From: a virus
Length of the DNA stretch: 37,402 bases
Reading direction: 5' to 3' (one strand)
Virus record (IMG/VR): IMGVR_UViG_3300042569_000074
Location: 1-37,402 of that record
Part shown: positions 3,983 to 27,907 of the stretch, piece after piece
Numbering within the stretch: the stretch's first letter is position 1
How the letters are laid out: every line of letters starts with the position of its first letter
Made by a program: the position numbers and the translations under genes
Notes under the pieces: model-generated
The model's input: the letters and a program-made list of their open reading frames with translations, nothing else
Told to the model about the DNA's origin: nothing
Database searches by the model: none

Positions 3983-4001
3983 ATAAAGTTCATAACTTTA
4001 T
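3983..4001 (+). promoter_or_regulatory. Inverted repeat with near-consensus -7 box before the nuclease gene
   Basis: A perfect 8-bp inverted repeat (ATAAAGTT, 3-nt spacer CAT, AACTTTAT) lies in the only gap of this operon, 7 bases before the ATG at 4008. Its right arm includes TAACTTTA, one base off the Bacteroidetes -7 box TAnnTTTG. There is no T-run after it, so it is not a convincing terminator. It could be an operator, a weak internal promoter, or a hairpin that affects translation of the nuclease gene. Confidence 0.35.
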
Positions 4002-4007
4002 AGTTAT

Positions 4008-4247
4008 ATGACTGAACAGCAAATCCAATCTAAACTCATTAAAGAGCTTGAGGCTCAGGGGTATTACGTGATTAAGTTAATAAAAACAAACAAAAATGGG
4101 ATACCTGACCTGCTTGCAATACCAAAGAAGAGCGATGTTGAGTTCTATGAGGTAAAGACAAGCGTGGGTAAGGTGTCTGAGTTACAAAAGTATAGACATA
4201 AAGAATTAGAAGACCATGGGATCTACGTTGAGGTATACAGAGGGTAA
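4008..4247 (+). CDS. VRR-NUC domain nuclease
   Basis: A 79-aa stand-alone VRR-NUC protein, a PD-(D/E)XK-fold nuclease family typical of phages and also the nuclease domain of FAN1. The motif residues are visible: GIPDLL (D34), the E-x-K pair in YEVKT (E48, K50) and the following helix with LQKYRH (Q60). Family members cut branched or damaged DNA and act as Holliday-junction resolvases; here it would plausibly resolve replication intermediates or trim DNA before packaging. The length is that of the minimal domain, so it is probably complete. The next ORF overlaps its 3' end by 32 bases in another frame. Confidence 0.85.
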   Translation: MTEQQIQSKLIKELEAQGYYVIKLIKTNKNGIPDLLAIPKKSDVEFYEVKTSVGKVSELQKYRHKELEDHGIYVEVYRG

Positions 4248-4539
4248 GGCAGTGTTGTTTGACATTGATTACCCATTTCAAAAAAAAGTAAAAAAGTATT
4301 CTGAAGAGACAATAAAACAGATTGTCTTTCAGATTGTGGACAATGTAAATTCATTTCCAAAAGATAATGAGTACACTCAGGATGTTTACGGAGTAATAAA
4401 GGGTAAAGACCCTTTGTTCTTTATGATTGAATACCTGAACGAAGAAAATGAGATACCATTATTGGTAGACTTCTTGGAAGTTACAGTAGATGAATACTTA
4501 GATGCAATTAACGAAAACAAACACTTAAAAGAATTATGA
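4216..4539 (+). CDS. Small acidic protein, unknown function
   Basis: A 107-aa protein I do not recognise. The first ATG (4216) lies 32 bases inside the VRR-NUC gene; a GTG at 4252, just after that gene's stop, would give a protein shorter by 12 residues, and the sequence does not decide between them. The product has a basic stretch (FQKKVKKY) followed by alternating helix and acidic strands and ends in a charged helix. There are no cysteines or membrane segments. Its stop overlaps the next start as ATGA, so it is coupled to the DnaA-like gene. Confidence 0.65.
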   Translation: MGSTLRYTEGKAVLFDIDYPFQKKVKKYSEETIKQIVFQIVDNVNSFPKDNEYTQDVYGVIKGKDPLFFMIEYLNEENEIPLLVDFLEVTVDEYLDAINENKHLKEL

Positions 4540-5057
4540 CCAACGCAAGCTTTGAAACGACAAAAACACTTGAATTTGTATCTGACTTCTTAGGTTTTGA
4601 CTTAACTCAAAAGTGCAGAAAGAGATACATAGTCGAGGGACGAATGATGTATGCCAAGCTGATGAAGCGATATACAAATGTGTCTTTATCTGACATTGGA
4701 CGTGCAATTGGTAAAGATCATGCCACTGTTATTCATTATATTAATAACTTTGCGTATATAAAGAAATCTGACGATCACTTTTCCTCTAAGTTTGACATGA
4801 TGGCAGACACCTATGAAGAGTTTCGAGAGACATGGTTTGATGATGTAAAGTTTGATGACAAGAGAAAGATTAAAGTTCTTGAGTCGTCACTCAAAGAATT
4901 AGTAGAAAGAAAAAATGAATACGAACGATACTTCAACAAGATTAAACGCATTGACTCAATTATTCAGCTTATTGAACAGAGGACACCAAAGGGAGAAGAG
5001 GAGTACGTCGAATCAAAGATTAATAGAATGTTTAACTCCATAATATTTAACCCATAG
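4536..5057 (+). CDS. DnaA domain IV-like DNA-binding protein
   Basis: A 173-aa protein with a helix-turn-helix like the DnaA C-terminal domain. The segment at about 25-72 matches the family: a basic helix (KCRKRYIVEGR), an aliphatic helix (MMYAKLMKRY), then SLSDIGRAIGKDHATV (50-65), which aligns with the DnaA signature around the IGR...DH-TV residues that read DnaA boxes. The AAA+ ATPase of true DnaA is absent. Residues ~105-173 form a charged helix, probably a coiled coil. It could mark a phage origin, or compete with host DnaA; both are inference. The start overlaps the upstream stop (ATGA) and its stop directly abuts the next ATG. Confidence 0.75.
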   Translation: MTNASFETTKTLEFVSDFLGFDLTQKCRKRYIVEGRMMYAKLMKRYTNVSLSDIGRAIGKDHATVIHYINNFAYIKKSDDHFSSKFDMMADTYEEFRETWFDDVKFDDKRKIKVLESSLKELVERKNEYERYFNKIKRIDSIIQLIEQRTPKGEEEYVESKINRMFNSIIFNP

Positions 5058-5258
5058 ATGGCAAAAGGCAGCGGTATAGAGAGAGCTAAACTCATCCTTG
5101 TTTACATGGACCGTATACACGACTGCCTAGATGACATCTACGAAGCTCTAGTTGACCGTGAATACCAAAAGTTTAGAGACGAGGTAGAGTCAGCAATTGA
5201 GCATCTTGAGAATTTACTTGAGAAGAAAGATGACTTATTTCGAGACAGAAGAGGATAG
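5058..5258 (+). CDS. Small helical protein, unknown function
   Basis: A 66-aa, strongly helical, acidic protein beginning immediately after the stop of the DnaA-like gene. The sequence is two amphipathic helices (RAKLILVYMDRIHDCLDDIY and a Glu-rich second helix ending ENLLEKKDDLF), suggesting a small dimer or a partner subunit of a neighbour. The last 29 bases overlap the start of the nuclease-like gene. I do not recognise a family. Confidence 0.6.
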   Translation: MAKGSGIERAKLILVYMDRIHDCLDDIYEALVDREYQKFRDEVESAIEHLENLLEKKDDLFRDRRG

Positions 5259-5646
5259 ACTACGAGAGAAAAAAGCAATTGAACGCTTCGTATCTATCTT
5301 CGATGGCAAATACCAAAAGTTAGACGATTATGATATCGACTACAAAGTATTTGACAGTAAGGGAACTCTTATCTCATACGTTGAGGTAAAGGGTCGCAAG
5401 AAAAATATTGCCAATGCTTATCCGCTGCCGGTCGGCTGCAGGAAACTACTGAAGCTTATTGACAAGCGCCTAAATCCTGTGGTGATTTGGGCCTGCGATG
5501 ATGGCATCATCTATGGTGAGATAAAGAAACTCAAAGGTAAAGTCCTATTCAGCGGTAGGCCAAATAGATCAGGTGCAGTTAATGACGATGAACTAATGGC
5601 CTACTATGACAAGCAGAAAGCTTTCAAATATATCCGCTACGATTAG
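5230..5646 (+). CDS. PD-(D/E)XK-like nuclease
   Basis: A 138-aa protein with a restriction-endonuclease-like core: helix with E18, then D37 in YDIDYKVFD, a turn, and the E-V-K triad in YVEVKGR (E52, K54), followed by a strand (NPVVIWACDDGIIYGEI). This spacing fits a PD-(D/E)XK nuclease with a helix-strand-strand core. I chose the ATG at 5230 (MTYFETEEDRL) over the upstream ATG at 5197, because the 11 extra residues are unlike the rest and the shorter form overlaps the previous gene less. Substrate unknown; DNA end processing or host DNA degradation is plausible. The stop (5644-5646) overlaps the stop of the convergent giant gene. Confidence 0.65.
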   Translation: MTYFETEEDRLREKKAIERFVSIFDGKYQKLDDYDIDYKVFDSKGTLISYVEVKGRKKNIANAYPLPVGCRKLLKLIDKRLNPVVIWACDDGIIYGEIKKLKGKVLFSGRPNRSGAVNDDELMAYYDKQKAFKYIRYD

Positions 5647-8600
5647 TTTTCTTTTTCTTTGATAAACTCATCACCACCATTCTCCATCTCACTGATGTTT
5701 GATTTACCCATGGTACTCTTAATGAATCCAAGTTCATTGATAAGCTCATCGTAGTCAACACCTAACCTGTTAGCTGAGTTAATCAAATCCATTAGCTCCT
5801 TAGCTTTAGCAGCATACTTTTCATTAGCTCTTATCAAAGACTCTTCTGTTTTTTTATTTTGCTCCTGAATATCCTTTTTAGTAGCATTAGGGTCTTCTTC
5901 AATGTCAAGACTCTTGTAATACTCAGAGTTGTAAATCTTTCTGATATCTTTGAATGACTCATCAAACTCAGCAAGTTTATATCCAAACTGCTCCTTAACA
6001 TCTGACTTTCTTACTTTAAGACCTGTTGCATCTCCAAAAGCAATTTGACTTAGTGATTGTTCACTAGCAGCCGCTTTTCTTATTGACGTTATTGTTCCCG
6101 GCTCAACAACTTTATACACATAATCTAATATTTTATCTGCCTTCTGAGAAAACGAATCTTCTTCGTTATAGATTGGCTTTCCGAAGTCATTCTCATTTCC
6201 TTTCAATTGAATAGCAAGGTTGGTTAAGATATCCGGGCCTTGGAATTGACCAACTAATTCAAGTGTTGATTGCTTGAATGAGTCAAGTAAGTCATCTCCT
6301 TTTAAAAATGCATTGAGTGCTTTGTTGATACCACCGTGTGGATCAGATGCACTAAAGTCAATGTACTCAATCTGACCATCAGCTGCTTTTAATATGATAA
6401 GGTCAGAGTTCTGAGACCAAGGCGGTAAGAAACTTCTTACGTCCTTCTCTTTTTTCTTCTCATCATCATCATCAAATAAAGCACCAAGCGCACCTCCAAT
6501 ACCTGTTCCTGCTGCGTATCCTAAGTAAGATAGCATAGCTGTCTTAGCGGCAAGATAGGAAGACGCACCTGCAACTCTCCTTGCTCCAATTTTCTTGATT
6601 TTTTTATTCTTTGAACTAAGTTCATCTTTAGCTAAAGCAATTGTATTGTAAGCAGTACGATATGATTCAGCTTGGAATGATATGAACGATCCAATAAACA
6701 ATGGGAATCTTCTGAGTCTCTTGATACCCTCAGGTATTCTACTGTATGTTGGATATGTGTTCTTCACATTATTTGCTGCGATGTCAGATACCTCTTGCTT
6801 TTCTTTATCAGTCAATTGGTCTTTTGACTTGTTGTAAAGCGCATCAGCATATCTATTCATCTCAGTCTCATAGGCTGCAATTTTAAACATATCATCTTCA
6901 GCTTGATATGCATCTTCCATAGCAGATATGATTTTAGATGACCTTGATGATATTGCTTGTCTGATTTTACCCATCACTCCTTTGCGCTTCTTCATTGACA
7001 ATCTTCTTTCTAAGAAGCCATCCATGTCAGCATCCTTGAACATATCTCTAATCTCATTGATTCCCGCTCCCTGACGCATGATACCTGCCTTGATGTACTC
7101 ATCAATCTTGGCTTCTACCTCAGGCTTACTCATTGTCTTAAGGTCTTGTGCAACAACTTTTACTGCCTTACCAATCTCAATGAGACTGTGTCCGTTTACA
7201 GCAACAAATCCTAAATTAGAAAATATGTTCTTGGCATGAGTTGCGACAGATCCAATTGTCTTAAGCCACTTCACCAAACCCATTGCTTTGTAGTAAACCT
7301 TGATTGCTTGTTGAGCCCAATGATCTTCACCTTGTTTACCATTATATAAATCAAATGCCTCAGCAATCTCAGGAGTGGTCATAAGACCATTCAATGGTGA
7401 CATTGTATCACTTCCCTCAGAAGCAATCTCAGTGTCAAATCCTTTAGGTCTTTGCGAGTCATTCTTCTCAAAGAAGAACTTACCCATACCTGCCTCTTTG
7501 ACTTGCGTCAAGAACTGATGTCTTGCAACAAGACTTGAAATGTTTAACACTGTTCGTGCATAGTTCATTGCAGGGTCAGAATATTCACCCATAAGCATTC
7601 TAATCTGCTCAGGAATCTCTTTCCTTTCCTTTAATGTAGAAAGGTCCTTAGAGCCAAGCTTTGCCCCTTTAACCAAAGCTCCTGTCTCAGCGTCAGCAAA
7701 ATATTCATCAATCTTATTATCAACCAATATATCTAGCGCTTCATTAATAGTTGTTCCGGTACGAGCAGCTTCAGCTTTAGCCAATGAAATCATACCCGGT
7801 TCTGTTCTCAAGAAGTTCTTAGCAGCTTGAAGTTCTTGTTCTCCTACTTTCTGTCTGAAGTTTTTGTTATCAAAAATTTCATAAGACCTTGTGATGTAGG
7901 ATCCCATGTTCTCTCTAATGGCATCAGCCATATCTCCTTCAACAGCACCTGTTGTAATAAGCATTTCAGATAGTCTGTCAATGTGATTACGCATCTCATT
8001 AGCCAATGCTGCAAATCCTGCAGGAAGTTGGATTGACTTGTCACCTCTTAACGCTTTGTCGAAAGCTTTCAATAGAAGTTCTTTGTCACCGGTAAACTTA
8101 TCGAATAGGACACCAAACTTCTTAGCTGTCTTAGCAGCGCGATTCGCTTCAGCAGATATCTCACCCTCCATTTTTTCTTTGTAGGTAAACCCAATCTTTG
8201 GAAGCAATCCTTTAGATGTAAGGAACTTTTGCTTGAATCTTTTAGCACCATCAACAAATCTACCTACGAGTCCTTTGACTCCTGACTTCATAAATACCTT
8301 CTGCTCCTTGGTATAGTACTTAGATAGCGCTTCAGTCATCTCCTTATTGGTGAATCCTGCAGCCTTTCCTTCTTGTCTAATATCAGCATCAGTCTTTCCT
8401 GCCTTGATGCCATCATCAACAATTTTATCAGGACTTGTTGTCTTCTGTTTTCTTACAGCAAACTGACTTTTTTGTCTTTCTTTATATTCAGCAAACTGAC
8501 TTTGTTGTCTTTCTCTATATTGTTTTTCTAATTGTTCATTCCCATCAAAACTTGCTTTACCTCTAGCAACAGGTTTTAATTTACCTAAGTCTTTTATTTT

Positions 8601-11600
8601 ATTATTAAACCAAACTGCACTACCTATTGATTCAAGATCCCCTAAATCTTTTACATTTGAGTTTACAAAATAAGCGTTTCCTCCTATTTTCTTTAATTTT
8701 CCTAAATTCTCTATTTTAGTATTTTGAAAATCGACATTGCCTCCAATTAATTCAAGTTTGCCTAAACTTTTTAGATTTTTATTTGAAGATACGAAGAAAT
8801 TTTTACCTACTTCTGTAAGATTGCCTAAGTCTTCTATTGAAGATTCAAAAGCAATGTTTAAGGAACCTCCAACTTTTTTAAGATTACCTAATGTTTTTAA
8901 TTTAGTACTTTTACCTTCTGCAAGGAAATCACCACCTACAAATTCTAAATCTCCTAAATCTTCAACTTCTGAAAATTCAAGATCAATAGTCCCTCCAACT
9001 TTTTTAAGATTACCTAAAGTTGTAACTCTAGAGTCTTGAAAGTTAGCATCACCACCTACTTCTTTTAAATTACCTAAATCATCAACTCTTGAATCTCTTA
9101 ACCGAAGAGATCTACCTACAAACTCTAAGTTTCCTAATGAATATAAATTAGCTCTTCTAAAATCTGCAACTTCTCCAATTCTTTTTAAGTTACCTAAATC
9201 TGAAACTTTTGAATCTCTAAATTCAGCTCTTCCTCCAATTTCTTTTAAGCTTCCTAAATTTCTAATATTTGATTCTTTAAGTATTAAATTACCTCCAATT
9301 GATTCAATACTTTTTATTTCTTTTACTGATGAATCAGTGTTAAATTCAACACTACCTGAAATTGTTTTTACTTTTCCTCCATCAAAATTATCGTAAGCAA
9401 TAACATTACCAATTATAACTTGAACATTTTTTATTTGCTCATTTCTATCAATATCCCAAGATGAAAATGGATTCTGCTTAATTAAAAGTAATGTATCATC
9501 TTTAATATCAGCTTTACTATTTGCAACACCGAAAGAGAATTTTGCATCTTTAAATTTATCCTGTAGTGTTTGAACAAGACCATTCTCCCCATAGTCAACT
9601 GAGAATTTATCCTTGTCTTTAAGGATGTCAATATAATTCATGACATCGTCCATATTAAGAACTTTATTGTCAATCTTATCAGTAAGGTCTTTTACCTTGG
9701 TGTTGTAAGCAATTGAGTCCAACCACTTCTTACCGCTATCATTAGGTATCTTCTCCTTTAAGAATTTATCAGCAACCGGTAGCATATCAGCCTCAAGATC
9801 TTGCTTAGAAGAAGCATTACCTCTGACCTCAGCAACCTCATCGCCTTTCATTCTTACAGCAATTCTCGGATCAAAGTCGCCCTGCTGATTCTCTGTAACA
9901 TATACGTAAAAGTCACCATAACTCAATTGGGCTAGAGCATTTGTTTTTGTACACCAATAGGTGTTCTGAACTAACTGTGATAACTTATTAGCATTGTCTT
10001 GAAGTTCTTGATTACCAAGATTTTTTCCTCCGTCAAATTTAATCCACTTGCCATCTTTAGTAGATGAGAACTCAGCTGACTCGACAATGTTTGCTGAGTT
10101 ATCAGCTTGAATTTTCACATAGTCTTTTAGCAACTCATTACTATCGCTTACATAAAGCGTAGCTAATGTTCCTGCATCAAATGGAGTGAAGTTTCTTATA
10201 GTCTTGGCTGTTCTCTTTTGGTATCGATCTGACTTAAGATCATAATTGTTTGTCAATACAGCATCAAGTATTAAATACTTAAATGCAGGTGTATAATCAG
10301 ATTGACCTAAGTATCTCTCCCATTGGTTAGCTGTCTCCACCTGAGCTCTTCTATACTCATTAATAACATTGTCTCTTTCAGACCCCGGTTTTAAGGCTCT
10401 TTTTGCACGCTCAATCTGATCGTTAGAGTAGCCTTGATTAACCATAGTATCAATCTCATTTTGTATTGCTTGGTCAATTGCAGGGCTATCTTCTCTAAAG
10501 ATATAGTCTGTAGTATTCTTTACAAGACCATCAAACTCTTTTTGTATTCTCTCAAGGATTGACTTCTTGTCAAAATTAGTTCCCTGAAGACCAATCTGCT
10601 TGATAGCCTGTGCATCATACTTATTCTCAACGCCCGCTCTCGCATACTTAATAGCTTCTTGGTCCGTCAAGTTGATGAGACCTTTCTGTTTTCTTACAGC
10701 AGCATCACCCTCTTTCTGTTGGCCTACTTCACGAGCTTCAATCTCTTGACCCGTCTCAACCTTTCTTGATAAGGTGTTCATAAACTGAATAGCCTCACGG
10801 TCTGTCATTTCTTTGAGACCAATAGCTTTAGCTAATCTGTTTAAGAATCGAACGATAATGTTCTTGGATGCAGGCGGCAACTGTTTGTAGTTGTCTGCCA
10901 ATATAGCAAACAACTCAGATAACTTCTCTTCGTTCTTGATGTTCTCGTCATAGTTACTCTCAAATTCTTCTAAATAACTCATAAGCTCAGCAGTACCCTC
11001 AGCTTTCTTGAGTGACTTACGAACTGAGTTAATCATTGAACGAGTTAGTCTTTGTGCCTCAACATCTGTATTGACTCTTGATAATATCAAAGCATGGAAT
11101 ACCTCGTGAGGTACCGTTCTATTGGTTGCCTTCTCAAGGTTGATATGTATCTGACCTGTCTTACGATCATATAGACCACCTTCTGATAGTCTTCCGTCCA
11201 TATCTTTTGTTGCCTCAACAAATGCCTCAGGTGTTGCGTGAACAACAATCTTAACCTTTGGCAATACTTTAGCAATTGCCTTGGCAGCTCTTGTAATTTG
11301 TGCAACAACTTTCTCCTTTCCTACGTTACGTATTTTCGCTGCAGTAAAGTCATTCTGTGTAAGCACATTGTTTTGTTGAGTAAGATCATCCAATGTCTGC
11401 TCAACCTGTGGCACTTCCTGCACCTCAATGGTCTCAATCTTTGCAGTTGGAGCTGCTTGTACAGTAGGTTGTACAACTTCAGCTGCTTCTTGTGTAGTAG
11501 CTAACCCTGCATCTATTAACTGTTGCCCGGTAAATGTAAGCTTTAGTTTGGTTTTAGCATTCTTGCCTCTACCTACTTTGGTTTCTGATTTACCTGTTGG

Positions 11601-14594
11601 TTCAACTCCTTTGAGTTCAGCAGGGACATCATTTTCTGATTCATATTCAAATGAATATCCTTCTAATGGATTTACAGTTAACTTTTCAGAAGGTTGTACA
11701 ACTTCCGCAGCAGGTGCTTGCTGTTCTTCTTGAGTAGGAGTTAACTGATTTAAGAACTCAGTATAAGTACCTCCATCATTTTTTCTAGCTTCAGCATATG
11801 CTATTGGGTTAGCTTCAAGCTCAGCTGAAAGACCTTGCTTTTCTTCTTGCGTAACAGTATCTCCAAGATTGTTTATTGATTCCCTCTCCGTTTCAACAAA
11901 GCTATCTATAACGCTTTGCCTCTCTTCTTCACTGAGCTCTGTTTTAGCTTGCTCGACTTGAGTTTTTTCTCTGACAGTTTTTCCGGTAGTCCTTTGAGTT
12001 TCTGATTCGGGTACTCTTTCCTCCACTTCCGTGCCAACTCCGGCTCCTGACTGAACAGGAACCGCATCTGCGCCTTGCTCTTGAACGGCATAACTTAATC
12101 CTTTTAATTGTTCGTTAATCTCAGCGACTCTATCCTTTTGTTTTGCAACAAGGTTAGGGTCTTTATCTTTTATTTCTTTATCTAAACTTTCTCTTTCCAT
12201 CAATAACCCAAAGGCTTCCCTTTGAGCTCCGACTGAAAAGTTCGTTGGTATTTGTCTTAGTGCAGGATACGCTTCATTGATGGATTTTATTTCCTCATCA
12301 GCTTGTTCCCTTGTTATTTGATTATCCTCAACCTTTTTATTTATTGAAGATATAGCTCCCTCACGGGCATCATCATTTAATATGATATCTCTATATACAG
12401 CAAATCTATTATTTGAAACTTTGTTTGATATAGGTTCTACTACACCGACTGATGCTGTACTACCCATACCACCGGCTACAGCTCCAACAAGAAATGCATT
12501 ACCTGATTCTTTTAATAGCTGCCCTATACCTTCAGTAGTTGATAGGTCAGCAGCATCTTTAAAGAATTTATTCTGTACAATTTGATTGTATATTTCTTTG
12601 GATACAGTACCACCACCTTCTTCCTTGGCTTTGTCTAATTGGTTTGATTGGATGATTCTATTAGCTATATCCTTTTCTACTCCTTCAAAAATCTGCTGAG
12701 TAAACTCGGTACCACCCTCAACTATACCTGCACCTGTAATCTTAAGCATTCCATTAGCTACGCTCGCTGCAACACTTTTGTCAATTGCACTTTTAATTTC
12801 TAATAGCGAAGCGTTTTTTGGAAGAGAGCTAAATGTCTTTGACATGATATACTCAGAAAACATTCCGAGCGTTTTGTTTTTTGCAGCGCCTGTAGCGACT
12901 TTAGCTCCTAACTTCTCAAGAGCTCCAATGACTAGACCATAAGGTACAGACATTATTTTCTTTTCATTTTCGCTCAATGCATCAAATTGAGGACCTCTCA
13001 TTTGGTCTTCAAGTGCATTGTATGACATTGCAAAGAATCCTGCATTAGTTCCTGCGGTAGCAAGACCACCACCTACAGCTCCTAAGCTTTCTCCTATCGC
13101 AAAAGCGGCTTGTTCTATAACTCCTCTATCAGTTGACTTTGCATATTCTTCAGTAGTTCCCATACCAAATGCATCAGGAACACTTCTTAAAACTTGATTT
13201 GCTTTGTTTTTTACTGATTTCTGAATTTCATTTTTTATCTCATCATCACTGAATCCTAACTCTTTTAGCCTTTCATATTCACCCGGTGTAATTGCATCTG
13301 CAAGAGTTTTAGCATCTGTTACAGCTGCTGCTCCTGAAATACCAAAATCAATCAATGCCTGAGATACATCTGTCAATCCCTCTCCAACACCTCTAAGAAC
13401 AAGACCCGTAAGGCTACCTTGCTTCTCTCTTTCAGCAGCAGTAATGACATTGGCTTTTTCTAAATTATTTGTAAGCTTATCAATCTTTTCAGCTTTACGA
13501 ATGACGCTTGACATAATGTCTCTTCTTTGCGTCAAAGAATTACGTTCATTCTCAAGCTCTGATGATCTTGCATCAAAATCAGCCTTAGACATTTTACCGC
13601 CTTTTACATCCTGATTGAATTTAGCAACTTTTTGCTCGTATGATTTTAAGTCAGAATCATAAGTATCAGCCTTAGCTCTAGTCATTTCTCCATTAAGAAG
13701 TTGTCTTTCTCTTTCAAAATAACTATCTACATCCATTCCTTCTAGCAATGATGCTTTGAATTTATTTGGATTAGACCCAACTAATTCGACTAAGTCTTCT
13801 ACGCTTTGTGCATTTTCAAACTGTTCTCTTTCTGATTTCTTTACTAGATTGGTAGAGACAAAACTTTTTAATTCCTTGTCAGCATTAGGATCTGATAAGT
13901 CAATTGTTTCTTGGTTTAGAATAGTACTATTAATACCATCTCCTATTTTTGATGTGACTGTTAGTTGCCAACCTAATTTTTTAAATTCTAAATTTGTTCC
14001 TTCAAATTGCTTATTTAAAATATTGGCAGTTGTCTCCTCATCTAAATCTCTAAGTTTTTTTGAGGATGGAATTTCATTAATAGAAGAATAAGCCTCAAAT
14101 TCTTTTTTACCAAAGTCTTCAGCCATCATTTGCATGGCTTCTTTGTCACTCAATGTATCAAATTCTACACTTGGCTTTGTTTCCTTAGGTTGCTCAAATG
14201 TGCTTTCAACCTTTTGAGTTGTTGCCTTAGGTTTTTTCTGAATGTTTTGAACCTGATCTAAATAGTCTTCAGTTCTGACTTTCTTTTGAGAAATAGGCTC
14301 TTCAGTAACCCCCTCAAATCTTCGAGAAGAAGAACCCGATGTAGGTTTTTCCAATTTGGAAGCCGATACGGTAGACTCTTTTTTTTTTACAGGTTCTTGA
14401 TTGAAACCAAACTCAGGAAACAGCGAGTTTACTTTTTTATAATCGTAATTATTCTTCTCGGCAGTAGCAACATAGTCTTTCAATAATTGCTGATCGTATC
14501 CTTTTAATTCAGGGAATAATCCAAATGCCTTGTTCCAATTGTAATTATACTTCTGTGCAGTAGCAATGAAGTCTTTTAATAGCTGTTCATTCAT
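5643..14594 (-). CDS. Giant multidomain virion (ejected/polyvalent) protein with metallopeptidase and leucine-rich-like repeats
   Basis: About 2983 aa, last gene of the ejection-protein group. I use the ATG at 14594; a TTG at 14600 is also in frame. Domains: (1) two copies of a ~33-aa motif (QLLKDF.ATA.K.NY...FPE, ~3-70); (2) charged coiled coil (~150-380); (3) hydrophobic Gly/Ala-rich segments near 390-430, 490-525 and 697-722 that could insert into membrane; (4) low-complexity linker (~800-1080); (5) zinc metallopeptidase-like domain with HEVFH at 1163-1167 and a possible third ligand E1227; (6) a domain with WCT (C1548); (7) about 13 leucine-rich-like 20-aa repeats (~1740-2015); (8) a long helical region to the end with another hydrophobic segment (~2675-2705) followed by an Asp-rich stretch. 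The size, position and make-up fit a T7 gp16-like or 'polyvalent' protein delivered with DNA. Substrates are unknown. Confidence 0.8.
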   Translation of the reverse strand: MNEQLLKDFIATAQKYNYNWNKAFGLFPELKGYDQQLLKDYVATAEKNNYDYKKVNSLFPEFGFNQEPVKKKESTVSASKLEKPTSGSSSRRFEGVTEEPISQKKVRTEDYLDQVQNIQKKPKATTQKVESTFEQPKETKPSVEFDTLSDKEAMQMMAEDFGKKEFEAYSSINEIPSSKKLRDLDEETTANILNKQFEGTNLEFKKLGWQLTVTSKIGDGINSTILNQETIDLSDPNADKELKSFVSTNLVKKSEREQFENAQSVEDLVELVGSNPNKFKASLLEGMDVDSYFERERQLLNGEMTRAKADTYDSDLKSYEQKVAKFNQDVKGGKMSKADFDARSSELENERNSLTQRRDIMSSVIRKAEKIDKLTNNLEKANVITAAEREKQGSLTGLVLRGVGEGLTDVSQALIDFGISGAAAVTDAKTLADAITPGEYERLKELGFSDDEIKNEIQKSVKNKANQVLRSVPDAFGMGTTEEYAKSTDRGVIEQAAFAIGESLGAVGGGLATAGTNAGFFAMSYNALEDQMRGPQFDALSENEKKIMSVPYGLVIGALEKLGAKVATGAAKNKTLGMFSEYIMSKTFSSLPKNASLLEIKSAIDKSVAASVANGMLKITGAGIVEGGTEFTQQIFEGVEKDIANRIIQSNQLDKAKEEGGGTVSKEIYNQIVQNKFFKDAADLSTTEGIGQLLKESGNAFLVGAVAGGMGSTASVGVVEPISNKVSNNRFAVYRDIILNDDAREGAISSINKKVEDNQITREQADEEIKSINEAYPALRQIPTNFSVGAQREAFGLLMERESLDKEIKDKDPNLVAKQKDRVAEINEQLKGLSYAVQEQGADAVPVQSGAGVGTEVEERVPESETQRTTGKTVREKTQVEQAKTELSEEERQSVIDSFVETERESINNLGDTVTQEEKQGLSAELEANPIAYAEARKNDGGTYTEFLNQLTPTQEEQQAPAAEVVQPSEKLTVNPLEGYSFEYESENDVPAELKGVEPTGKSETKVGRGKNAKTKLKLTFTGQQLIDAGLATTQEAAEVVQPTVQAAPTAKIETIEVQEVPQVEQTLDDLTQQNNVLTQNDFTAAKIRNVGKEKVVAQITRAAKAIAKVLPKVKIVVHATPEAFVEATKDMDGRLSEGGLYDRKTGQIHINLEKATNRTVPHEVFHALILSRVNTDVEAQRLTRSMINSVRKSLKKAEGTAELMSYLEEFESNYDENIKNEEKLSELFAILADNYKQLPPASKNIIVRFLNRLAKAIGLKEMTDREAIQFMNTLSRKVETGQEIEAREVGQQKEGDAAVRKQKGLINLTDQEAIKYARAGVENKYDAQAIKQIGLQGTNFDKKSILERIQKEFDGLVKNTTDYIFREDSPAIDQAIQNEIDTMVNQGYSNDQIERAKRALKPGSERDNVINEYRRAQVETANQWERYLGQSDYTPAFKYLILDAVLTNNYDLKSDRYQKRTAKTIRNFTPFDAGTLATLYVSDSNELLKDYVKIQADNSANIVESAEFSSTKDGKWIKFDGGKNLGNQELQDNANKLSQLVQNTYWCTKTNALAQLSYGDFYVYVTENQQGDFDPRIAVRMKGDEVAEVRGNASSKQDLEADMLPVADKFLKEKIPNDSGKKWLDSIAYNTKVKDLTDKIDNKVLNMDDVMNYIDILKDKDKFSVDYGENGLVQTLQDKFKDAKFSFGVANSKADIKDDTLLLIKQNPFSSWDIDRNEQIKNVQVIIGNVIAYDNFDGGKVKTISGSVEFNTDSSVKEIKSIESIGGNLILKESNIRNLGSLKEIGGRAEFRDSKVSDLGNLKRIGEVADFRRANLYSLGNLEFVGRSLRLRDSRVDDLGNLKEVGGDANFQDSRVTTLGNLKKVGGTIDLEFSEVEDLGDLEFVGGDFLAEGKSTKLKTLGNLKKVGGSLNIAFESSIEDLGNLTEVGKNFFVSSNKNLKSLGKLELIGGNVDFQNTKIENLGKLKKIGGNAYFVNSNVKDLGDLESIGSAVWFNNKIKDLGKLKPVARGKASFDGNEQLEKQYRERQQSQFAEYKERQKSQFAVRKQKTTSPDKIVDDGIKAGKTDADIRQEGKAAGFTNKEMTEALSKYYTKEQKVFMKSGVKGLVGRFVDGAKRFKQKFLTSKGLLPKIGFTYKEKMEGEISAEANRAAKTAKKFGVLFDKFTGDKELLLKAFDKALRGDKSIQLPAGFAALANEMRNHIDRLSEMLITTGAVEGDMADAIRENMGSYITRSYEIFDNKNFRQKVGEQELQAAKNFLRTEPGMISLAKAEAARTGTTINEALDILVDNKIDEYFADAETGALVKGAKLGSKDLSTLKERKEIPEQIRMLMGEYSDPAMNYARTVLNISSLVARHQFLTQVKEAGMGKFFFEKNDSQRPKGFDTEIASEGSDTMSPLNGLMTTPEIAEAFDLYNGKQGEDHWAQQAIKVYYKAMGLVKWLKTIGSVATHAKNIFSNLGFVAVNGHSLIEIGKAVKVVAQDLKTMSKPEVEAKIDEYIKAGIMRQGAGINEIRDMFKDADMDGFLERRLSMKKRKGVMGKIRQAISSRSSKIISAMEDAYQAEDDMFKIAAYETEMNRYADALYNKSKDQLTDKEKQEVSDIAANNVKNTYPTYSRIPEGIKRLRRFPLFIGSFISFQAESYRTAYNTIALAKDELSSKNKKIKKIGARRVAGASSYLAAKTAMLSYLGYAAGTGIGGALGALFDDDDEKKKEKDVRSFLPPWSQNSDLIILKAADGQIEYIDFSASDPHGGINKALNAFLKGDDLLDSFKQSTLELVGQFQGPDILTNLAIQLKGNENDFGKPIYNEEDSFSQKADKILDYVYKVVEPGTITSIRKAAASEQSLSQIAFGDATGLKVRKSDVKEQFGYKLAEFDESFKDIRKIYNSEYYKSLDIEEDPNATKKDIQEQNKKTEESLIRANEKYAAKAKELMDLINSANRLGVDYDELINELGFIKSTMGKSNISEMENGGDEFIKEKEN
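8443..8460. repeat. 18-bp direct repeat, copy 1 (end of inserted module)
   Basis: ttctgttttcttacagca, identical to 10684-10701. Both copies are in the giant gene's frame and encode A-V-R-K-Q-K. They bracket the WCT-plus-repeat module. Confidence 0.85.
8457..8522. repeat. 33-bp tandem duplication, two copies
   Basis: Units at 8457-8489 and 8490-8522 match at 30 of 33 positions. In the giant protein they encode the repeated ERQQSQFAEYK / ERQKSQFAVRK linker directly after the leucine-rich-like repeats. Copy 1 overlaps the 18-bp direct repeat, so this linker seems prone to duplication. Confidence 0.85.
8536..9330. repeat. About 13 degenerate 60-bp repeats encoding leucine-rich-like units
   Basis: Period of ~20 codons. 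The consensus on the coding (-) strand is [D/N/S/T]-LG-[N/D/K]-L-K/E-x-[I/V]-GG-xxx-F/L-xx-S-x-[V/I]. It should form a solenoid. The DNA is visibly more A+T-rich than the flanking parts of the gene. Two central units carry 1-2 extra residues. Confidence 0.85.
10684..10701. repeat. 18-bp direct repeat, copy 2 (start of inserted module)
   Basis: ttctgttttcttacagca, identical to 8443-8460. It encodes the A-V-R-K-Q-K linker that precedes the WCT-containing domain of the giant protein. Confidence 0.85.
11906..12091 (-). CDS. Overprinted small basic protein inside the giant gene (candidate)
   Basis: A 61-aa ORF wholly inside the giant gene, same strand, different frame. It opens with MPFKSKAQMRFLFSQEPELA and continues with a W..EYPN..LKGLPEKL segment, which closely resembles a family of short basic phage and plasmid proteins (MPFKSKAQ-R-F-x-P-x-A...LPEKV) that I know as annotated stand-alone genes. 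Upstream, AAAAGGA sits 7 bases before the ATG, an unusually good ribosome-binding site for this phage. The overlapped giant-protein segment (~835-897) is low-complexity linker, so the alternative frame looks like the older, constrained one. Either it is still translated as an overlapping gene, or it is a remnant read through in another frame when the giant gene was built. Function is unknown for the family. Confidence 0.55.
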   Translation of the reverse strand: MPFKSKAQMRFLFSQEPELARKWRKEYPNQKLKGLPEKLSEKKLKSSKLKQSSVKKRGKAL

Positions 14595-14617
14595 ATGCAA
14601 ATATACTTATAATATTA

Positions 14618-16222
14618 CTAGCCCCCTCTAGGATTACCTCCGCTTTTAGCAGCTCCTCCGCCTGATGGTTTGGTGTTTGATGAAGATTGACCTGTTCTTT
14701 TTTCTCTCTCCTCATCAGTGTATGTTGAAGAGCTATATATCTTATCTTGGCTGAATGTTGAATCTGAAGGTAAATAAGCTCCAAATAATGTAAAGCCATG
14801 GATATTTTTAAATTGATCTTTACCTTCTTTGTAAACTTCTTGAGCTTGCTTTGGATCAATACCTGCTAAGTAAGAAGCTAAATCATCAGCATTTGTAACA
14901 GGCTTGAATTTATCAGGCTTTGTTTCATAATCAACATTACCTCCTGATGCCACATACATTACATTCTTACCGCCCTTATTATCAAAATGGAAGCTGTAGT
15001 CTGTAGTATTTAATGCACCTAAATTACCTGTTCTCATAGCATTGTTCGCCTTCTCGTAATAAGAAACTTTATCTGTCTTATTGCCATTACCATTGTTGTT
15101 GTTATTATTATAGTTAGGAGCGTATTGAATAGAAGGCTCTGCTTGAAGATCAGTCTTTGTCTGTTGGTCTACAGCATTACGTGTTTGTGAACGTAAGAAG
15201 TCAGTAGCTGCTTTTGTTTGTTCTTCATTAAACTTAGGACGAATCATTCCTGATCCATCATCCTCAAGTAAAATATATTTAGCATTAGTCTTTGCTAACT
15301 CAGCATCGAATGTAGGCTCATAAAAATCATTGGTTCCCGGAACCTTATCAACTGCGTCTGTCAATAAACCAAGTTGATTAAATGGATTGGCGAGTTCAGC
15401 CTTAATCATACCATTCTCCCATTCTTGATATGCAGTTAATGTTTTCTGATCCTCATCACTTAGTCTAGTTCTTAACGTAGGATCAGTCATCTCATCGATG
15501 CGAAGCATACGATACGCACCTTTTAACTTGGTGACGCTTGTTTTTAAAACATCTCCCAATGCCTCAACCTGACCATCAACAGCTGCGACATAGTTATACT
15601 TGTCGAGCTTGACATTCATTCTATTTCGTAATTGATTGACGCTCATATAGTTGTCAGGATTTTCATCCATCATCATAACTTCTTTCCCGTCATCTCCCTT
15701 TTTCTTTATCATCTTGGCAATACTCACCTGACCATTGGTCGGATTGATGTAAGCCTTGGTATTAGTGAAGTTGCTAAGACCTTCAATTTGTTCCATAAGC
15801 CAAGCCTCAGTCTCCTGTGATTTCCCGAGCTCATATCTCTCCATCATTTCCTTGGCTTTATCTTGGTATTCTTTTGATACCTCAAACATTTGCTTTGTGC
15901 TATCTCCCAAGTTCTGTCTCTGAACTGTATAGTCACGAACACTTAATCGACCGCTCTTGAGTAGTCTGTCCTGCATTAAGCGGGCTTGTGCTGCATCATT
16001 GGCAAAGTCTAATGTCCATTCATTGGCAGCTTTAAAGTCACCCGTAGGTGCATTGGCCAATGTCTCACCGTATTGGCGAGATGCCTCATCAATTGCAGCT
16101 TTCTTTTCTTCACGAATTGATGCCTCAGTGTTGAGCATATCCGTTACATTCTTCCCTACCTCAGCCCAATTAATTTGTGAGTCAGCACTGCGTTCCGCAA
16201 ACTTATAGTATGTCTTAGCCAT
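14618..16222 (-). CDS. Internal virion protein (ejection protein, gp15-like position)
   Basis: A 534-aa, mostly helical, charged protein without signal peptide or membrane segment. The N-terminal ~200 residues are rich in Ala, Glu and Lys; a poly-Asn/Gly stretch (NNNNNNGNGN) at about 375 separates a C-terminal part that ends in a Ser/Gly-rich tail. No enzymatic motif is visible. It sits between a small membrane-helix protein and the giant protein with 3-base and ~23-base gaps, matching the small-medium-large series of ejected proteins in T7 (gp14, gp15, gp16) and cargo proteins of crAss-like phages. The role is inferred from order and composition, not from recognised homology. Confidence 0.6.
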   Translation of the reverse strand: MAKTYYKFAERSADSQINWAEVGKNVTDMLNTEASIREEKKAAIDEASRQYGETLANAPTGDFKAANEWTLDFANDAAQARLMQDRLLKSGRLSVRDYTVQRQNLGDSTKQMFEVSKEYQDKAKEMMERYELGKSQETEAWLMEQIEGLSNFTNTKAYINPTNGQVSIAKMIKKKGDDGKEVMMMDENPDNYMSVNQLRNRMNVKLDKYNYVAAVDGQVEALGDVLKTSVTKLKGAYRMLRIDEMTDPTLRTRLSDEDQKTLTAYQEWENGMIKAELANPFNQLGLLTDAVDKVPGTNDFYEPTFDAELAKTNAKYILLEDDGSGMIRPKFNEEQTKAATDFLRSQTRNAVDQQTKTDLQAEPSIQYAPNYNNNNNNGNGNKTDKVSYYEKANNAMRTGNLGALNTTDYSFHFDNKGGKNVMYVASGGNVDYETKPDKFKPVTNADDLASYLAGIDPKQAQEVYKEGKDQFKNIHGFTLFGAYLPSDSTFSQDKIYSSSTYTDEEREKRTGQSSSNTKPSGGGAAKSGGNPRGG

Positions 16223-16225
16223 ATC

Positions 16226-17056
16226 TTAAAATCCGAATGGGTTAAATTGATTAGCTGATGCAGCTTCATTATATAATTGACCAAACTGCTTATTTCCAAA
16301 TAACATTTTATATTGGTCTTTTGTCAATGATTTTACAAATGCCTTATACTCAGGTTTTGATAATTGACTAATTGCATCAAGGTCTAAGTTTGTAAATCCT
16401 TCACCTGCTGTTCCTAATCCTTCAAAATTTACATTTCCAATTTTTTGAATTTGCTCAGGGCTTAATTCAAGTCCTGCAAAAGCAGCCTGTTCTGATTTTA
16501 CGTCAGTGCCATACAATGGCGCAAGCTTAGCTGCTTGACCAAGCATGCTTGTTACTCCTGCAATTGCTCCTTTAGCAGCCTGTGCAGCACGCTCTTCGTA
16601 CATTGCTGATGCAGTTTGTGCGCCCTCAGCTTCATCTAAAGCCAACTGTGTTTTAATATCTTTGAGTCTTGAGTCCTCAGCAGCTGACAGCTTCTCAAGA
16701 TCAGCCATCTCTTGTCCTTGGCGCGTTTGAATATCTCTAATTGCATCTGAGTAGCCGGCATATATTCTGCCTATGCTTCCCATACCTCGTTCGCTTTCAC
16801 GAGCAGCCTCAATTGATTGAGCGCCTACAGATGCCAATGCCTCACGTTCTATCTCGTATGGTTTCATTTGAACACCAAGTTGGTCGTAGACATTTACTTC
16901 TAAGAATTTATCAGCTTCTTGTCTGAATTTTAAAGCATCAGCGTCAGACTCCTTTTGGAGTTTTCTCATTTTGCGCATATCTCCAATTGAGAAGCCTGTG
17001 GTTAAGGCTGTTGATACAGCGCCACCTATTGCTGCTATTGCTGCGAATCCTAACAT
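16226..17056 (-). CDS. Internal virion protein with N-terminal membrane helix (gp14-like position)
   Basis: A 276-aa protein with a hydrophobic, small-residue N-terminus (MLGFAAIAAIGGAVSTALTT, residues 1-20), followed by a long charged helical region (30-140) and another Ala-rich apolar segment (~160-180). This layout is typical of the first, membrane-entering protein of podoviral ejection complexes (T7 gp14 type). It is the first gene after a TAnnTTTG box and heads a three-gene unit with the 534-aa and giant proteins. A specific family match is not claimed. Confidence 0.6.
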   Translation of the reverse strand: MLGFAAIAAIGGAVSTALTTGFSIGDMRKMRKLQKESDADALKFRQEADKFLEVNVYDQLGVQMKPYEIEREALASVGAQSIEAARESERGMGSIGRIYAGYSDAIRDIQTRQGQEMADLEKLSAAEDSRLKDIKTQLALDEAEGAQTASAMYEERAAQAAKGAIAGVTSMLGQAAKLAPLYGTDVKSEQAAFAGLELSPEQIQKIGNVNFEGLGTAGEGFTNLDLDAISQLSKPEYKAFVKSLTKDQYKMLFGNKQFGQLYNEAASANQFNPFGF

Positions 17057-17078
17057 TTCAATTATTTTTTATATTATA

Positions 17079-17086
17079 CAAAGATA
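17079..17086 (-). promoter_or_regulatory. Putative promoter -7 box (TATCTTTG) for ejection-protein genes
   Basis: TATCTTTG on the - strand matches the Bacteroidetes -7 element TAnnTTTG and lies in the 36-bp gap before the 276-aa gene, 22 bases from its ATG. No clear -33 TTTG is seen upstream. Confidence 0.55.
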
Positions 17087-17092
17087 AGTTTT

Positions 17093-17896
17093 TTAAGGGA
17101 AACTCTTCATAACGTCTGATTGAACAGCAAATAGCTCAACCTTATTGGTATTATCGTTCTCTAAAGTAAAGACACAATAGTGACCTAATACACCGTGTGA
17201 CTCAGCAACTGAGTTCTTGATGTATAGGAAGTATGCATTCTGAACAGGTGGAACAGAGCCTCCTGTAATAGTGGTATTAACTATAAAGTAGTTATCACCT
17301 GCAGGATAGTTCTGAACAATATTGGTAACCCTACCACACAAAATAGGAGTGTTGTAGTTTGGCCCAAGTGCATAGTATAGGTAGTCACCCACACTTGCAA
17401 TAGTCCCAATGGCTATCAATGGGTTTATAGAAAATGCAATCTTAGTTGATGCAGCAGGACCTGATACAGTTAAACTTCTACCAACACCATTAAGTGATCG
17501 TAAAGCATACTCATCCGTACCTGCAGGTATTGTTCCTGAGTTGCGAATGAATGCAAAGTACACTTGCTCTTTCTTCTCAAACCAATCCTTCTCAATGTAT
17601 CCACTGTTTTGGATATCCGTCTCAATTGGAAGAGCTTCCCAAGAATCATCACCCTGAAGTGCTAACGTTTTGAATAACAAATTTTCCAATGGTGCTTCAT
17701 TGAATACGCTAGTCATTCTTGAGTTATACTGAACGCCATAGAAATTGTTTCTAAGCGCATTTACATTATGTCGGTATAGGTTACCACCTTTAAACGTGTA
17801 AAAGTAATTGTTCATGCCAATCATCCAATCAGGTATGAATGAGTAGAACGATGGCCAACCTTCCGATGTTTCGCTGTATGTTAGTGTATATTCCAT
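17093..17896 (-). CDS. Tail-associated structural protein
   Basis: A 267-aa protein (start at ATG 17896, one base after the upstream stop; the longer form from 17929 would overlap that gene). The N-terminus contains GWPSFYSFIPDWMIGMNNYF and YTFKGGNLYRHN, a pattern I recognise from structural proteins of Bacteroidetes and aquatic phages. The rest is beta-rich, with no transmembrane helix or enzyme motif. It directly follows two larger tail proteins and precedes the ejection proteins, so it probably belongs to the tail tube or its tip. Exact role unknown. Confidence 0.65.
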   Translation of the reverse strand: MEYTLTYSETSEGWPSFYSFIPDWMIGMNNYFYTFKGGNLYRHNVNALRNNFYGVQYNSRMTSVFNEAPLENLLFKTLALQGDDSWEALPIETDIQNSGYIEKDWFEKKEQVYFAFIRNSGTIPAGTDEYALRSLNGVGRSLTVSGPAASTKIAFSINPLIAIGTIASVGDYLYYALGPNYNTPILCGRVTNIVQNYPAGDNYFIVNTTITGGSVPPVQNAYFLYIKNSVAESHGVLGHYCVFTLENDNTNKVELFAVQSDVMKSFP

Positions 17897-17897
17897 A

Positions 17898-19211
17898 TTA
17901 TGAATTGCAGTTACAATCAAAAAATTCAACTACTACGCCTCCGGGACTTCCGTTTATAGTGATGCTTTCTGAGCGAGCGCATATGTACTCAGTAGTATTT
18001 GCAGTTATTGTAAAGGTAGTAAATACACCTGCACAGTTTATATAAGCTCCTTGTTGAGATGATGAACTCATGTTATTTACCAAATAGAACGTACAAATAT
18101 CTGAGCAAGATTCTGCTGTAGATATTGCATCAACTGTTACATCAGGTGTATCATTGGTTTGGCCTACAACAGTAAATGTACAGCCCGTATAAGCCACCTC
18201 AGAAACAGTAACCAAATCACCTATTGTTAATGCAATGGATGATTCTGCAACAAAGTCTTCTTGTGTAGCACATCTTCTAATGATATAGTTTTCCCAATCA
18301 CAGTTGCCCATCTGAACGATGACACCATTTGATACTAAAAACCACTCATACCCTGATGGTAAAGATGATGGTGAATAGTAGTATCCATCAGATGCAGTAA
18401 CCTCTCCATTAGGGTCTAAGAAAATCCAATCGAATAAACCAAGTATTACTCCATTTCCATTTACAGGAGCACTATAATAAGTAATGCCTTTTTCATCACC
18501 ACATACAGCTGCTGAACTAATTCCAACTTGACTTGCTGAAATAGGCAATAGAGAAAAAGGACACGTTACAGATAAACCAAATCTTGCACCACATGGTGCT
18601 TCAACAGTGATATCCAATGATGATGGGTTAAGGCTCACCTTTGGTATAACCATAATACAGAGACCCGGTGGGTTAACTGTTAAGTTAAGTTGTGATGGTA
18701 ATGCACTTACACCGGATGTGGTACCATTGTATACGTATGCATTCGTGACATTATTCCAATCGTAGTTCCCAACGATAATACCTGTTGTTGAAATACCACA
18801 GTCATTATCTTCATCTCCCATATATACAGGAAGTCCTGCCGGAGCTGTCATATATCCGTAAATAGGTGAACTGAAGGAATTGTAAGTGATGCCATCGTAT
18901 ACGGCCTTAAATCCATTTGGATAGAATATAGGATTAAATTTTACAATTACCGCACCTGTATCTCCCGGATCACTTCCTAAATCAATTGTTGATAGATAAA
19001 CTCCCGTTTGATTTTTACTTTCATTTAAGCTTACTCCACAGTCTTCACCACATGATGGGCAAAACTTTGCAGGTCCTAATACACATGATGTCTGAACGCG
19101 CGTTATTGTTCCGTCTGAATATACACCATCAGCAGCGCATATACTAAGTGCTGCGTTAGTATATACTGCTGTGGCTAATGATAATGACGGTGCGTCTAAG
19201 TAGTATGGCAT
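17898..19211 (-). CDS. Cysteine-containing beta-rich tail protein
   Basis: A 437-aa beta-rich protein with about 20 cysteines, unusual for a phage structural protein. A cluster FCPSCGEDCG lies at about 50-59. Repeated segments built around ITY...GxxDW occur in the middle. The C-terminal ~65 residues, beginning CTFYLVNN and containing YINCAGVF, EYICA and FDCNCNS, are clearly related to the C-terminus of the 1536-aa tail protein encoded immediately upstream. The start is 11 bases after that gene. Most likely an exposed tail or adhesin-like protein; the function is inferred from position and fold type only. Confidence 0.6.
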   Translation of the reverse strand: MPYYLDAPSLSLATAVYTNAALSICAADGVYSDGTITRVQTSCVLGPAKFCPSCGEDCGVSLNESKNQTGVYLSTIDLGSDPGDTGAVIVKFNPIFYPNGFKAVYDGITYNSFSSPIYGYMTAPAGLPVYMGDEDNDCGISTTGIIVGNYDWNNVTNAYVYNGTTSGVSALPSQLNLTVNPPGLCIMVIPKVSLNPSSLDITVEAPCGARFGLSVTCPFSLLPISASQVGISSAAVCGDEKGITYYSAPVNGNGVILGLFDWIFLDPNGEVTASDGYYYSPSSLPSGYEWFLVSNGVIVQMGNCDWENYIIRRCATQEDFVAESSIALTIGDLVTVSEVAYTGCTFTVVGQTNDTPDVTVDAISTAESCSDICTFYLVNNMSSSSQQGAYINCAGVFTTFTITANTTEYICARSESITINGSPGGVVVEFFDCNCNS

Positions 19212-26461: not shown

Positions 26462-27907
26462 TTAGGCACCGTAACGGAACAAGAAGAAGTTGTTCGCGCC
26501 CAAGGTACAAAGTGCACGCTCAGACAAGAAGTTAACTTCCATTGCATCGAGGTCGCTAGTAGCAGCACCACCGGCAGAACCTGTGATCCAAGTTTTGTAA
26601 CGACGATCTTCAGTTTCAGACGCACGGTAACGAACGTGTAAGAACGGACGCTTAGCGTTTTTACCAAGGATTTGATCGTATACAGTTGTTGAACCTGCAG
26701 GAACAAGCATACCTGTGATTACGTTAGCAGTTGAAGCTCCTGTAGCAGATGCAGTCAAACCACCACGCATTGTTGGATCGTTGAGGTATTTCCAATCTGT
26801 TTTGTAGAAGTCATAACCACGACGGAATCCTGAGAAACCAAGGTTAAGGGCCATGTCACGGTCGTTGTCAAACAAACCATAAGATGTACCTGCAGCACCA
26901 TAGCTGTTTTGAGAAGCCAACATATCGTCGATGTCGAAAGAGAAATCACGATTAACGAACAATACGTTCTCTTCGATAGAACCTTGTTTGTCAAGACGAG
27001 AAATCATATCGTCGAAATCTTGCAATGATGTTGGGTTACCACCGCCCCATACGTTACCACGAGAGTTAACAACGTAGAAAGCACCTTCAGAACCTTTGTT
27101 ACCATAGATTGGGTTGACACCTGAGTTAGCAACACCTGAACCTGATTCAGCAGGAACAGCTTCTAACATTGCAGTTTCGAGGTAGTCTTCGAAACGGAGA
27201 CGAGTTTCGTGCTCAGACTTCAAATACCAAAGGTATCCGTTAGCACCATTCTCAGTAGTGATTTCAATCCAACCGATCTGAGCCATGTCAGAACCATTGA
27301 CAGCATACTTGTCTTTGATGATGATTGGGCTGTTAGAGAAGATTTCGTCTTCTGCTTCCAATGAACCAATCATACCTACAGTACCTTTCTTGAACTCAGA
27401 ACCATAAACAAATACGCTAAATTCGTTAGCTGTAGAAGCATTGGTAAAACCTGCAGTTTCGTAGAAAGCAACTGTAAATTGGTCAGTAGCTGTGTTAACA
27501 GCAGTAACGATTGCTTTGTTTTGGGAAGGACCCGCAACGTTAGGAGTAATCATTACAGTTTGACCTGCGCGGATAGCGATACCTGTTACGTTCAAGTCAT
27601 TCACTTGGAAGATAGCAGTGTTAGCATTTGTTGCAGTAGCTGTAGAAACAACTTTAGTGTACTTAGTGTGAAGACGACCTTGTTCTGCCCATTTGATTTG
27701 GTCAGAGATAGACGGCATCTCAGCACCTACCATACGAAGGAAAGATGCAACGGTACGGTTTCCGTAACGCTCAAATTCTTTCTCATATGTATCAGGTAAA
27801 TACTGATTCATGAAGTTAAATCCGTTTGACGGGATGTAGTTTGTTGACAAAGCTACCTGTTCAGCACTTGGCTGTAACTGATAACCGGGTGTAGATAAAA
27901 CAGACAT
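26462..27907 (-). CDS. Major capsid protein
   Basis: A 481-aa protein placed directly after the scaffold gene and before a strong terminator. The N-terminal region contains FMNQYLPDTYEKEFERYGNR; a strand-rich insertion with RAGQTVMI and VTAVNTATDQFTVAFY (~100-160) looks like a small beta-barrel inserted in the capsid fold; later come WIEITTENGANGYLWYLKSE and a C-terminal LSERALCTLGANNFFLF. It uses more G+C-rich, apparently selected codons than its neighbours, as expected for a highly expressed gene, and has an A-rich leader (AAAAAAGAAAAAAA) before the ATG. HK97 fold is assumed for tailed phages and not visible directly. Confidence 0.85.
   Translation of the reverse strand: MSVLSTPGYQLQPSAEQVALSTNYIPSNGFNFMNQYLPDTYEKEFERYGNRTVASFLRMVGAEMPSISDQIKWAEQGRLHTKYTKVVSTATATNANTAIFQVNDLNVTGIAIRAGQTVMITPNVAGPSQNKAIVTAVNTATDQFTVAFYETAGFTNASTANEFSVFVYGSEFKKGTVGMIGSLEAEDEIFSNSPIIIKDKYAVNGSDMAQIGWIEITTENGANGYLWYLKSEHETRLRFEDYLETAMLEAVPAESGSGVANSGVNPIYGNKGSEGAFYVVNSRGNVWGGGNPTSLQDFDDMISRLDKQGSIEENVLFVNRDFSFDIDDMLASQNSYGAAGTSYGLFDNDRDMALNLGFSGFRRGYDFYKTDWKYLNDPTMRGGLTASATGASTANVITGMLVPAGSTTVYDQILGKNAKRPFLHVRYRASETEDRRYKTWITGSAGGAATSDLDAMEVNFLSERALCTLGANNFFLFRYGA

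Follow-up and report, generated by a model that had tools for sequence, protein, structure and literature searches.

How two proteins come to be written in the same DNA, and which of the two genes was there first, are the questions raised by a short open reading frame (ORF) in the virus record IMGVR_UViG_3300042569_000074. The window analysed here is this whole 37.4 kb record (positions 1 to 37,402), which carries a phage head module on its minus strand. The ORF runs from ATG to stop over 61 codons inside a 2985-codon virion-protein gene. An earlier interpretation made from the letters alone (the sequence-only reading) took it for a recognisable small phage protein encoded out of frame in a giant gene whose own product is plain linker there, and proposed either a functional overlapping gene or a giant gene reading through a former small one. 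The ORF is present as described and the giant protein across it is indeed a linker-like stretch. Comparison with related viruses suggests a small gene that is probably older than the overlap and has been nested in several unrelated host genes. The elements at the site are the following.

11906-12091, minus strand: nested small gene, 61 amino acids, stop codon within the coordinates, in the +1 frame of the giant gene.
5643-14600, minus strand: giant host gene, 2985 amino acids from a TTG, with the first ATG at codon 3.
12095-12097, minus strand: TAA in the small frame, two codons 5' of the ATG, read from the sequence.
12099-12105, minus strand: AAAAGGA, 7 bases 5' of the ATG, a possible ribosome-binding site.

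Reading 11906-12091 against 5643-14600 places codon position 3 of the small gene on codon position 1 of the giant gene, and the in-frame TAA makes an earlier start of the nested ORF impossible. The window holds one copy of the small gene. Its product starts with MPFKSKAQ and is rich in lysine (predicted N-terminal peptide MPFKSKAQMKACYSQ).

Related stretches number at least 379 in a scan of viral contigs with peptide patterns, which excludes a chance ORF. From this first scan 80 loci were kept, two scans with other members added 92, and the window itself and a Flavobacterium phage record bring the total to 174 loci, some of them near-copies. The scans demand motifs such as MPFKSKAQ, and conservation of the first residues is thus partly built in. 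A family search led to phrog_1375, for which no function is assigned. Of the 69 members aligned, 67 match it with E<=0.1, the best at 2.2e-7. The window ORF itself does so weakly (E=0.012), and profile searches of Pfam and NCBIfam gave no match for it. The nested ORF is thus very probably a genuine small gene of this family, whose members are short, rich in lysine and arginine and start with MPFKS. The family profile was run against 31 records, of which 24 gave a single match, G008 added a weak second one (E=7e-4) and six gave none; since 24 of these records were picked as carriers, the result speaks for copy number and not for the rate of retention.

In 145 of the 174 loci the small ORF lies within a larger ORF on the same strand, and the relative frame is identical every time. 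Distinct nested copies number 122, with 37 in giant genes and 85 in shorter homologues of a scaffold-like gene. The remaining 29 loci comprise standalone copies, in-frame N-terminal fusions (L123-L125, L181) and contig ends (L049, probably L136). Bacterial and archaeal genome bins contribute 12 loci, six of them nested in the same frame and six not. The 122 distinct nested ORFs end in TAG (64) or TAA (58) and never in TGA, whereas TGA ends six of the 18 standalone genes and five of the window's 28 ORFs; no frame constraint is evident behind the nested zero. Antisense open frames of at least 150 codons cross the ORF at 5 of the 174 loci (L029, L060, L065, L127, L155).

Nesting is not peculiar to the giant gene of the window. 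The second kind is represented in the window by an unoccupied homologue, which lies among genes used below.

27928-29010, minus strand: scaffold-like gene, 360 amino acids, without a nested copy in the window; homologues elsewhere carry one.
26462-27907, minus strand: gene for a virion structural protein (phrog_13704), after the scaffold-like gene.
29053-31488, minus strand: portal gene (phrog_6547), the basis of the phage tree.

The module runs from terminase through portal, scaffold-like gene and virion structural protein to further genes and the 2985-residue giant. The name scaffold-like rests on gene position and acidic composition, the matching PHROG family having no function, and the product of 26462-27907 is probably the major capsid protein, judging from its phrog_13704 match and its position. 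All 85 distinct shorter hosts match the window scaffold-like protein (30-39% identity, E from 6e-63 to 4e-14). Nine carrier loci repeat the window order, with terminase- and portal-sized genes, the scaffold-like host and then a gene of about 465-490 amino acids. The 37 distinct giants form three mutually unrelated similarity clusters of 26, 9 and 2 members, and none of the 37 matches the window scaffold-like protein.

Giant and scaffold-like hosts share similar DNA that reaches no further than the ORF and up to 25 bases 5' of its ATG, which indicates that the small gene has changed host between these unrelated genes. In copies of the KACYSQ type, giant-hosted L162, L164 and L156 have DNA 85-87% identical to that of scaffold-hosted L161, L137 and L150 (5 comparisons), and in the WMRINKP type giant-hosted L206 and L207 are 81-82% identical to scaffold-hosted L199 (2 comparisons). 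These matches start 25 to 0 bases 5' of the ATG and stop within the ORF. At the protein level, L161 and L162 also have about nine residues before the ORF in common. A protein search aligned the L161 scaffold-like protein with the G032 giant up to residue 168, past the nested part (residues 52-97), and with the G031 giant up to residue 94. BLASTP extends the latter to residue 119 through gaps and confines the former to residues 43-93, and the DNA match ends within the ORF. The BLASTP and DNA limits thus leave about nine residues before the ORF as the shared protein outside it.

The sequence-only reading had looked to related giants for the fate of this frame, and the distant ones (L086-L094) are without the ORF in the giant gene. 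Seven records were found through the giant gene, of which six have no family match; the seventh (L094), whose giant is 37% identical to the C-terminal part of the window giant, has its copy nested in the scaffold-like gene instead. In scaffold-hosted phages, giant ORFs that lack the small gene measure 2066 (G012), 2608 (G014) and at least 1994 amino acids (G016).

A tree of portal proteins (59 rows thinned from 88) places the giant-hosted phages together, with the exception of a single highly divergent row. A portal match was found in 16 of the 32 giant-hosted records searched; the fragments L245, L247 and L248 were left out, and L027, L030, L035, L046, L057, L065, L126 and L127, with no window-like portal, are off the tree. 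The tree of the small protein requires seven host changes, at least four of them forced by well-supported branches. The small-gene tree and the phage tree disagree as transfer would produce.

Close relatives of the window provide a local view. Compared with L003 and L006, the nested ORF is an island of divergence: identity is about 100% to both over 900 bases upstream and falls within the ORF to 86% (L003) and 74% (L006), with in-frame changes in tail length. The ORF is nearly equally close to L001/L002 (83-84% of nucleotides) and to L003, despite an upstream contrast of 48-52% against about 100%, and recombination was for this reason preferred to hypermutation as the source of the island.

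Substitutions indicate that both readings of the shared DNA are maintained. Across 250 upstream giant codons, the window, L003 and L006 show 8 differences per 750 codon comparisons. Over the first 38 nested codons the same trio shows 26, 10 and 4 differences at host positions 1, 2 and 3 (n=114), and since host position 1 is position 3 of the small gene, the overlapping stretch follows the small gene in its evolution. The contrast recurs across the family. Substitutions at host positions 3 and 1 stand at 67:166 inside the ORF and 554:363 in the flanks for giant hosts (15 pairs, p=3.7e-18), and at 140:329 inside and 2387:1243 in the flanks for scaffold-like hosts (39 pairs, p=8e-50). Disjoint pairs were used and the first 9 codons, conserved by the search pattern, were dropped; earlier counts that included them gave the same result. 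Small-frame third positions are therefore favoured inside the ORF and the pattern is reversed in the flanks, a signature of purifying selection on the nested frame.

The host frame leaves its own mark. As a silent choice, T at position 3 of small-gene codons is absent wherever it would create a host stop, with 0/461 sites in giant hosts and 0/799 in scaffold-like hosts (0/1260 in total), compared with 62/447 and 165/1138 (227/1585) at harmless sites. In the 18 standalone copies, T occupies 70/210 would-be host-stop sites and 114/294 others. Maintenance of the host frame in nested copies is thus suggested as well, even though the zero follows partly by definition, nested copies being defined by an open host frame. 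With selection in its own frame, avoidance of host-frame stops and phrog_1375 membership, the sequence tests bear out the first proposal of the sequence-only reading, a functional overlapping gene.

The use of a single frame has a likely explanation in the host protein. Of the 122 nested copies, just one keeps the remaining out-of-phase frame free of stops. Net charge per residue is +0.26 for the small protein, -0.21 for the overlapped host segment and -0.12 for the host flanks, and the overlapped segment is negative in 112 of the 122. All nested copies would share one frame because the single stop-free out-of-phase frame reads as an acidic, Glu/Gln-rich linker that the host tolerates. The basic product may also bind the acidic segment encoded by the same DNA.

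Translation most likely proceeds by internal initiation at the ORF's own ATG in an A-rich, weakly folded part of the late mRNA, as the 122 start regions suggest. These contain 57% A compared with 39% in the host gene, and their folding averages -3.5 kcal/mol compared with -8.2 at other ATGs of that frame. The AAAAGGA emphasised by the sequence-only reading is present 7 bases before the ATG and makes a weak argument, for among 96 distinct 20-base upstream stretches it occurs only in the window flank type and L073. In the first set of loci, Shine-Dalgarno-like runs of at least six bases precede 8 of 23 distinct giant-host starts and 0 of 36 scaffold-host starts; Shine-Dalgarno pairing was consequently dropped as a general explanation.

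Standalone copies point to the direction of events. At four standalone loci analysed out of a set of eight (L009, L020, L034, L067), a terminase gene lies nearby in all four, a portal or head-tail adaptor gene lies near three, and a protease and a major head protein gene lie near L009. In phage 023Pt_psg01 the gene is annotated alone, between a connector gene and GroES and head genes. Standalone neighbours in C75C1 and P-RSP2 are mostly hypothetical and uninformative. The small gene, standing alone near head genes in other phages, is probably the older partner. In the window lineage it sits in a variable linker of the host gene, and recombination would have moved it between host genes, with both overlapping readings apparently staying intact during the moves. 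Standalone and differently hosted copies argue against the nested gene being the younger partner, as in classical overprinting, although the comparison is unrooted. The wider notion of a portable cassette that passes among phages and lands in disordered linkers of unrelated late structural genes, always in the single stop-free frame, is plausible and falls somewhat short of probable.

Several points weigh against this account. Stops interrupt the host-type frame in 16 of the 18 standalone genes (of the two open ones, L136 lies at a contig end), and a standalone gene therefore cannot simply drop into a host gene. Two host changes suffice on the portal tree, which implies few switches among phages, and the additional switches rest on a small-protein tree of only 44 columns together with the shared DNA. 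The giants of G012, G014 and G016 show no detectable similarity to the window giant, and no exact empty site is readable either in the giant relatives without the small gene (L086-L094) or in the scaffold alignment. The Fisher tests on substitutions take sites as independent, their disjoint pairs were not checked against a tree, and flanks with at least 45% difference were excluded. At -6.0 kcal/mol, folding at the window's own start supports the point less well than the mean does, and the other ATGs of that frame serve only imperfectly as a control.

The closed frame matters for how nesting began. The first nesting would have needed further changes, or else the host gene was extended over its neighbour, whereas transfer from one nested site to another would be easy. 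Nesting in the scaffold-like gene might reflect 5' extension of that gene over an adjacent standalone gene, with the giant-gene location as the only move. The position of the gene in 023Pt_psg01 and the longer N-terminal linker of carrier scaffold-like proteins in the scaffold alignment fit such an extension, which we regard as a real possibility, if not the expected one. It is compatible with an older small gene that changed host and would alter the first step only.

Other explanations fare far worse. A former small gene might be read through by the giant gene as a relic with its translation lost, the second proposal of the sequence-only reading. The intact host frame and the plain linker encoded across the ORF agree with this, and the proposal is partly right in that the standalone copies beside head genes make the small gene probably the older partner. 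Substitutions in nested copies nevertheless concentrate at small-frame third positions, and start, stop and open frame are kept although length varies. The gene is still under selection and hardly a former one, which makes a relic very unlikely. Programmed frameshifting from the host gene, in place of initiation at the ORF's own ATG, would suit a +1 frame. It is equally hard to credit, given small-frame stops close to the ATG in many nested copies: 0-9 codons 5' of it in most copies of the first set, up to about 40 in some, and two codons before it in the window. Standalone copies use the same ATG. A nucleic-acid element, either an RNA structure or a DNA site, could account for a short conserved unit with DNA-level similarity across different hosts, but substitutions follow small-frame codon periodicity, standalone copies hold the same ORF from the same ATG, and folding at the starts is weak, not strong; such an element is more improbable still. 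Least credible is that conservation belongs to the host frame (motif AVQEQ..) with the small ORF as by-product, since the alike host reading of the first codons between hosts is outweighed by a host position 3 that is slow within the ORF and fast outside, a position pattern that already contradicts it, and by standalone copies that keep the small frame with the host-type frame open in just 2 of 18.

What the small protein does may be tentatively read from its surroundings. The favoured reading, somewhat short of even odds, is a small basic protein that acts in head assembly or inside the head, given its scaffold-like and giant virion hosts and the standalone copies near terminase, portal and capsid genes. 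An AlphaFold2 model (69-row alignment) has a mean predicted local distance difference test (pLDDT) of 71 and a predicted template modelling score (pTM) of 0.41, with confident helices at residues 6-15 and 17-26 and low confidence for helix 41-51 and the basic tail. A structure search with this model returned one PDB match (E=6.6) and 17 viral matches (best E=0.12), none significant, and function by fold was dropped accordingly. A PDB sequence search with the alignment profile gave 17 sequences, mostly designed repeat proteins, which were treated as spurious because no stretch passes on its own. The in-frame N-terminal fusions (L123-L125, 5001-5579, 192 amino acids; L181, 5001-6368, 455 amino acids) are a possible route to the function of the small protein; profile searches of the fused proteins found no functional match.

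The giant hosts have features of their own. Residues 2224-2858 of the window giant match the virion structural protein family phrog_22602. Residues of about 1830-2060 (window about 8420-9110, minus strand) form a run of repeats of about 20 residues (LGNLKEVGG...), with a Receptor L domain match under the curated cut-off. L084/L085 match the window at 90.6% identity over 11699-17899 and at 95.6% over 3993-8462, and as much of the giant between these stretches is unaligned to them, the giant gene is a mosaic. Annotation of the elemo phage L219 (MT497067.1; 3430-5243, 10402-10944) gives it GroES and GroEL of its own, plus another cpn10 close to the head genes. In five elemo phage records, nothing but the giant structural protein is annotated across the nested gene. 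These records name Flavobacterium sp. BAL314 as the bacterial host, which makes the question directly testable.

The usual account of nested genes is that they arise as new genes within older ones and lie where they originated. Polyvalent giant phage proteins with LPD domains are a further familiar concept: L027, a giant host in the second cluster, has matches to LPD23 and a DarB-like family, and L259, a nested host from a genome bin, matches LPD38, whereas profile searches found no LPD match in the window giant or in L129. Both nested and standalone members match phrog_1375, the window member weakly. The literature searched, with most subscription journals outside it, contained no report of nesting in this family or of a single gene family occupying several unrelated host genes. 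The peptide MPFKSKAQ did not appear in that literature, and the accessible part of one article does not mention elemo phages (PMC7077304). Nested phage genes have long been known, and one family nested in several unrelated hosts appears to be new, none having been found. The family offers a natural series for how two proteins share DNA and why only one frame works, and it shows how gene finders miss such nested genes. In phiX174, gene E lies wholly within gene D and the DNA is coding in two frames (PMC8227390, in part); overprinting there, as far as the source covers it, makes a new gene in an old one, whereas the nested gene here is probably the older. Another likeness is lambda Rz1, embedded in the +1 frame of Rz, with overlapped and separated arrangements also known and with a proposal that a separate gene could become embedded via duplication and deletion or read-through (PMC6139136, in part). 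To the extent of that source, Rz/Rz1 shares with the present case a small gene wholly inside another phage gene in the +1 frame, and it is a precedent for an older gene turning into a nested one. The window product has no signal sequence by eye and lies in a structural gene, unlike the spanin Rz1 with its lipoprotein signal and its place in a lysis cassette. The lambda host gene encodes the functional partner, the i-spanin, whereas the hosts here are mutually unrelated and homologous copies of the small gene lie in different hosts.

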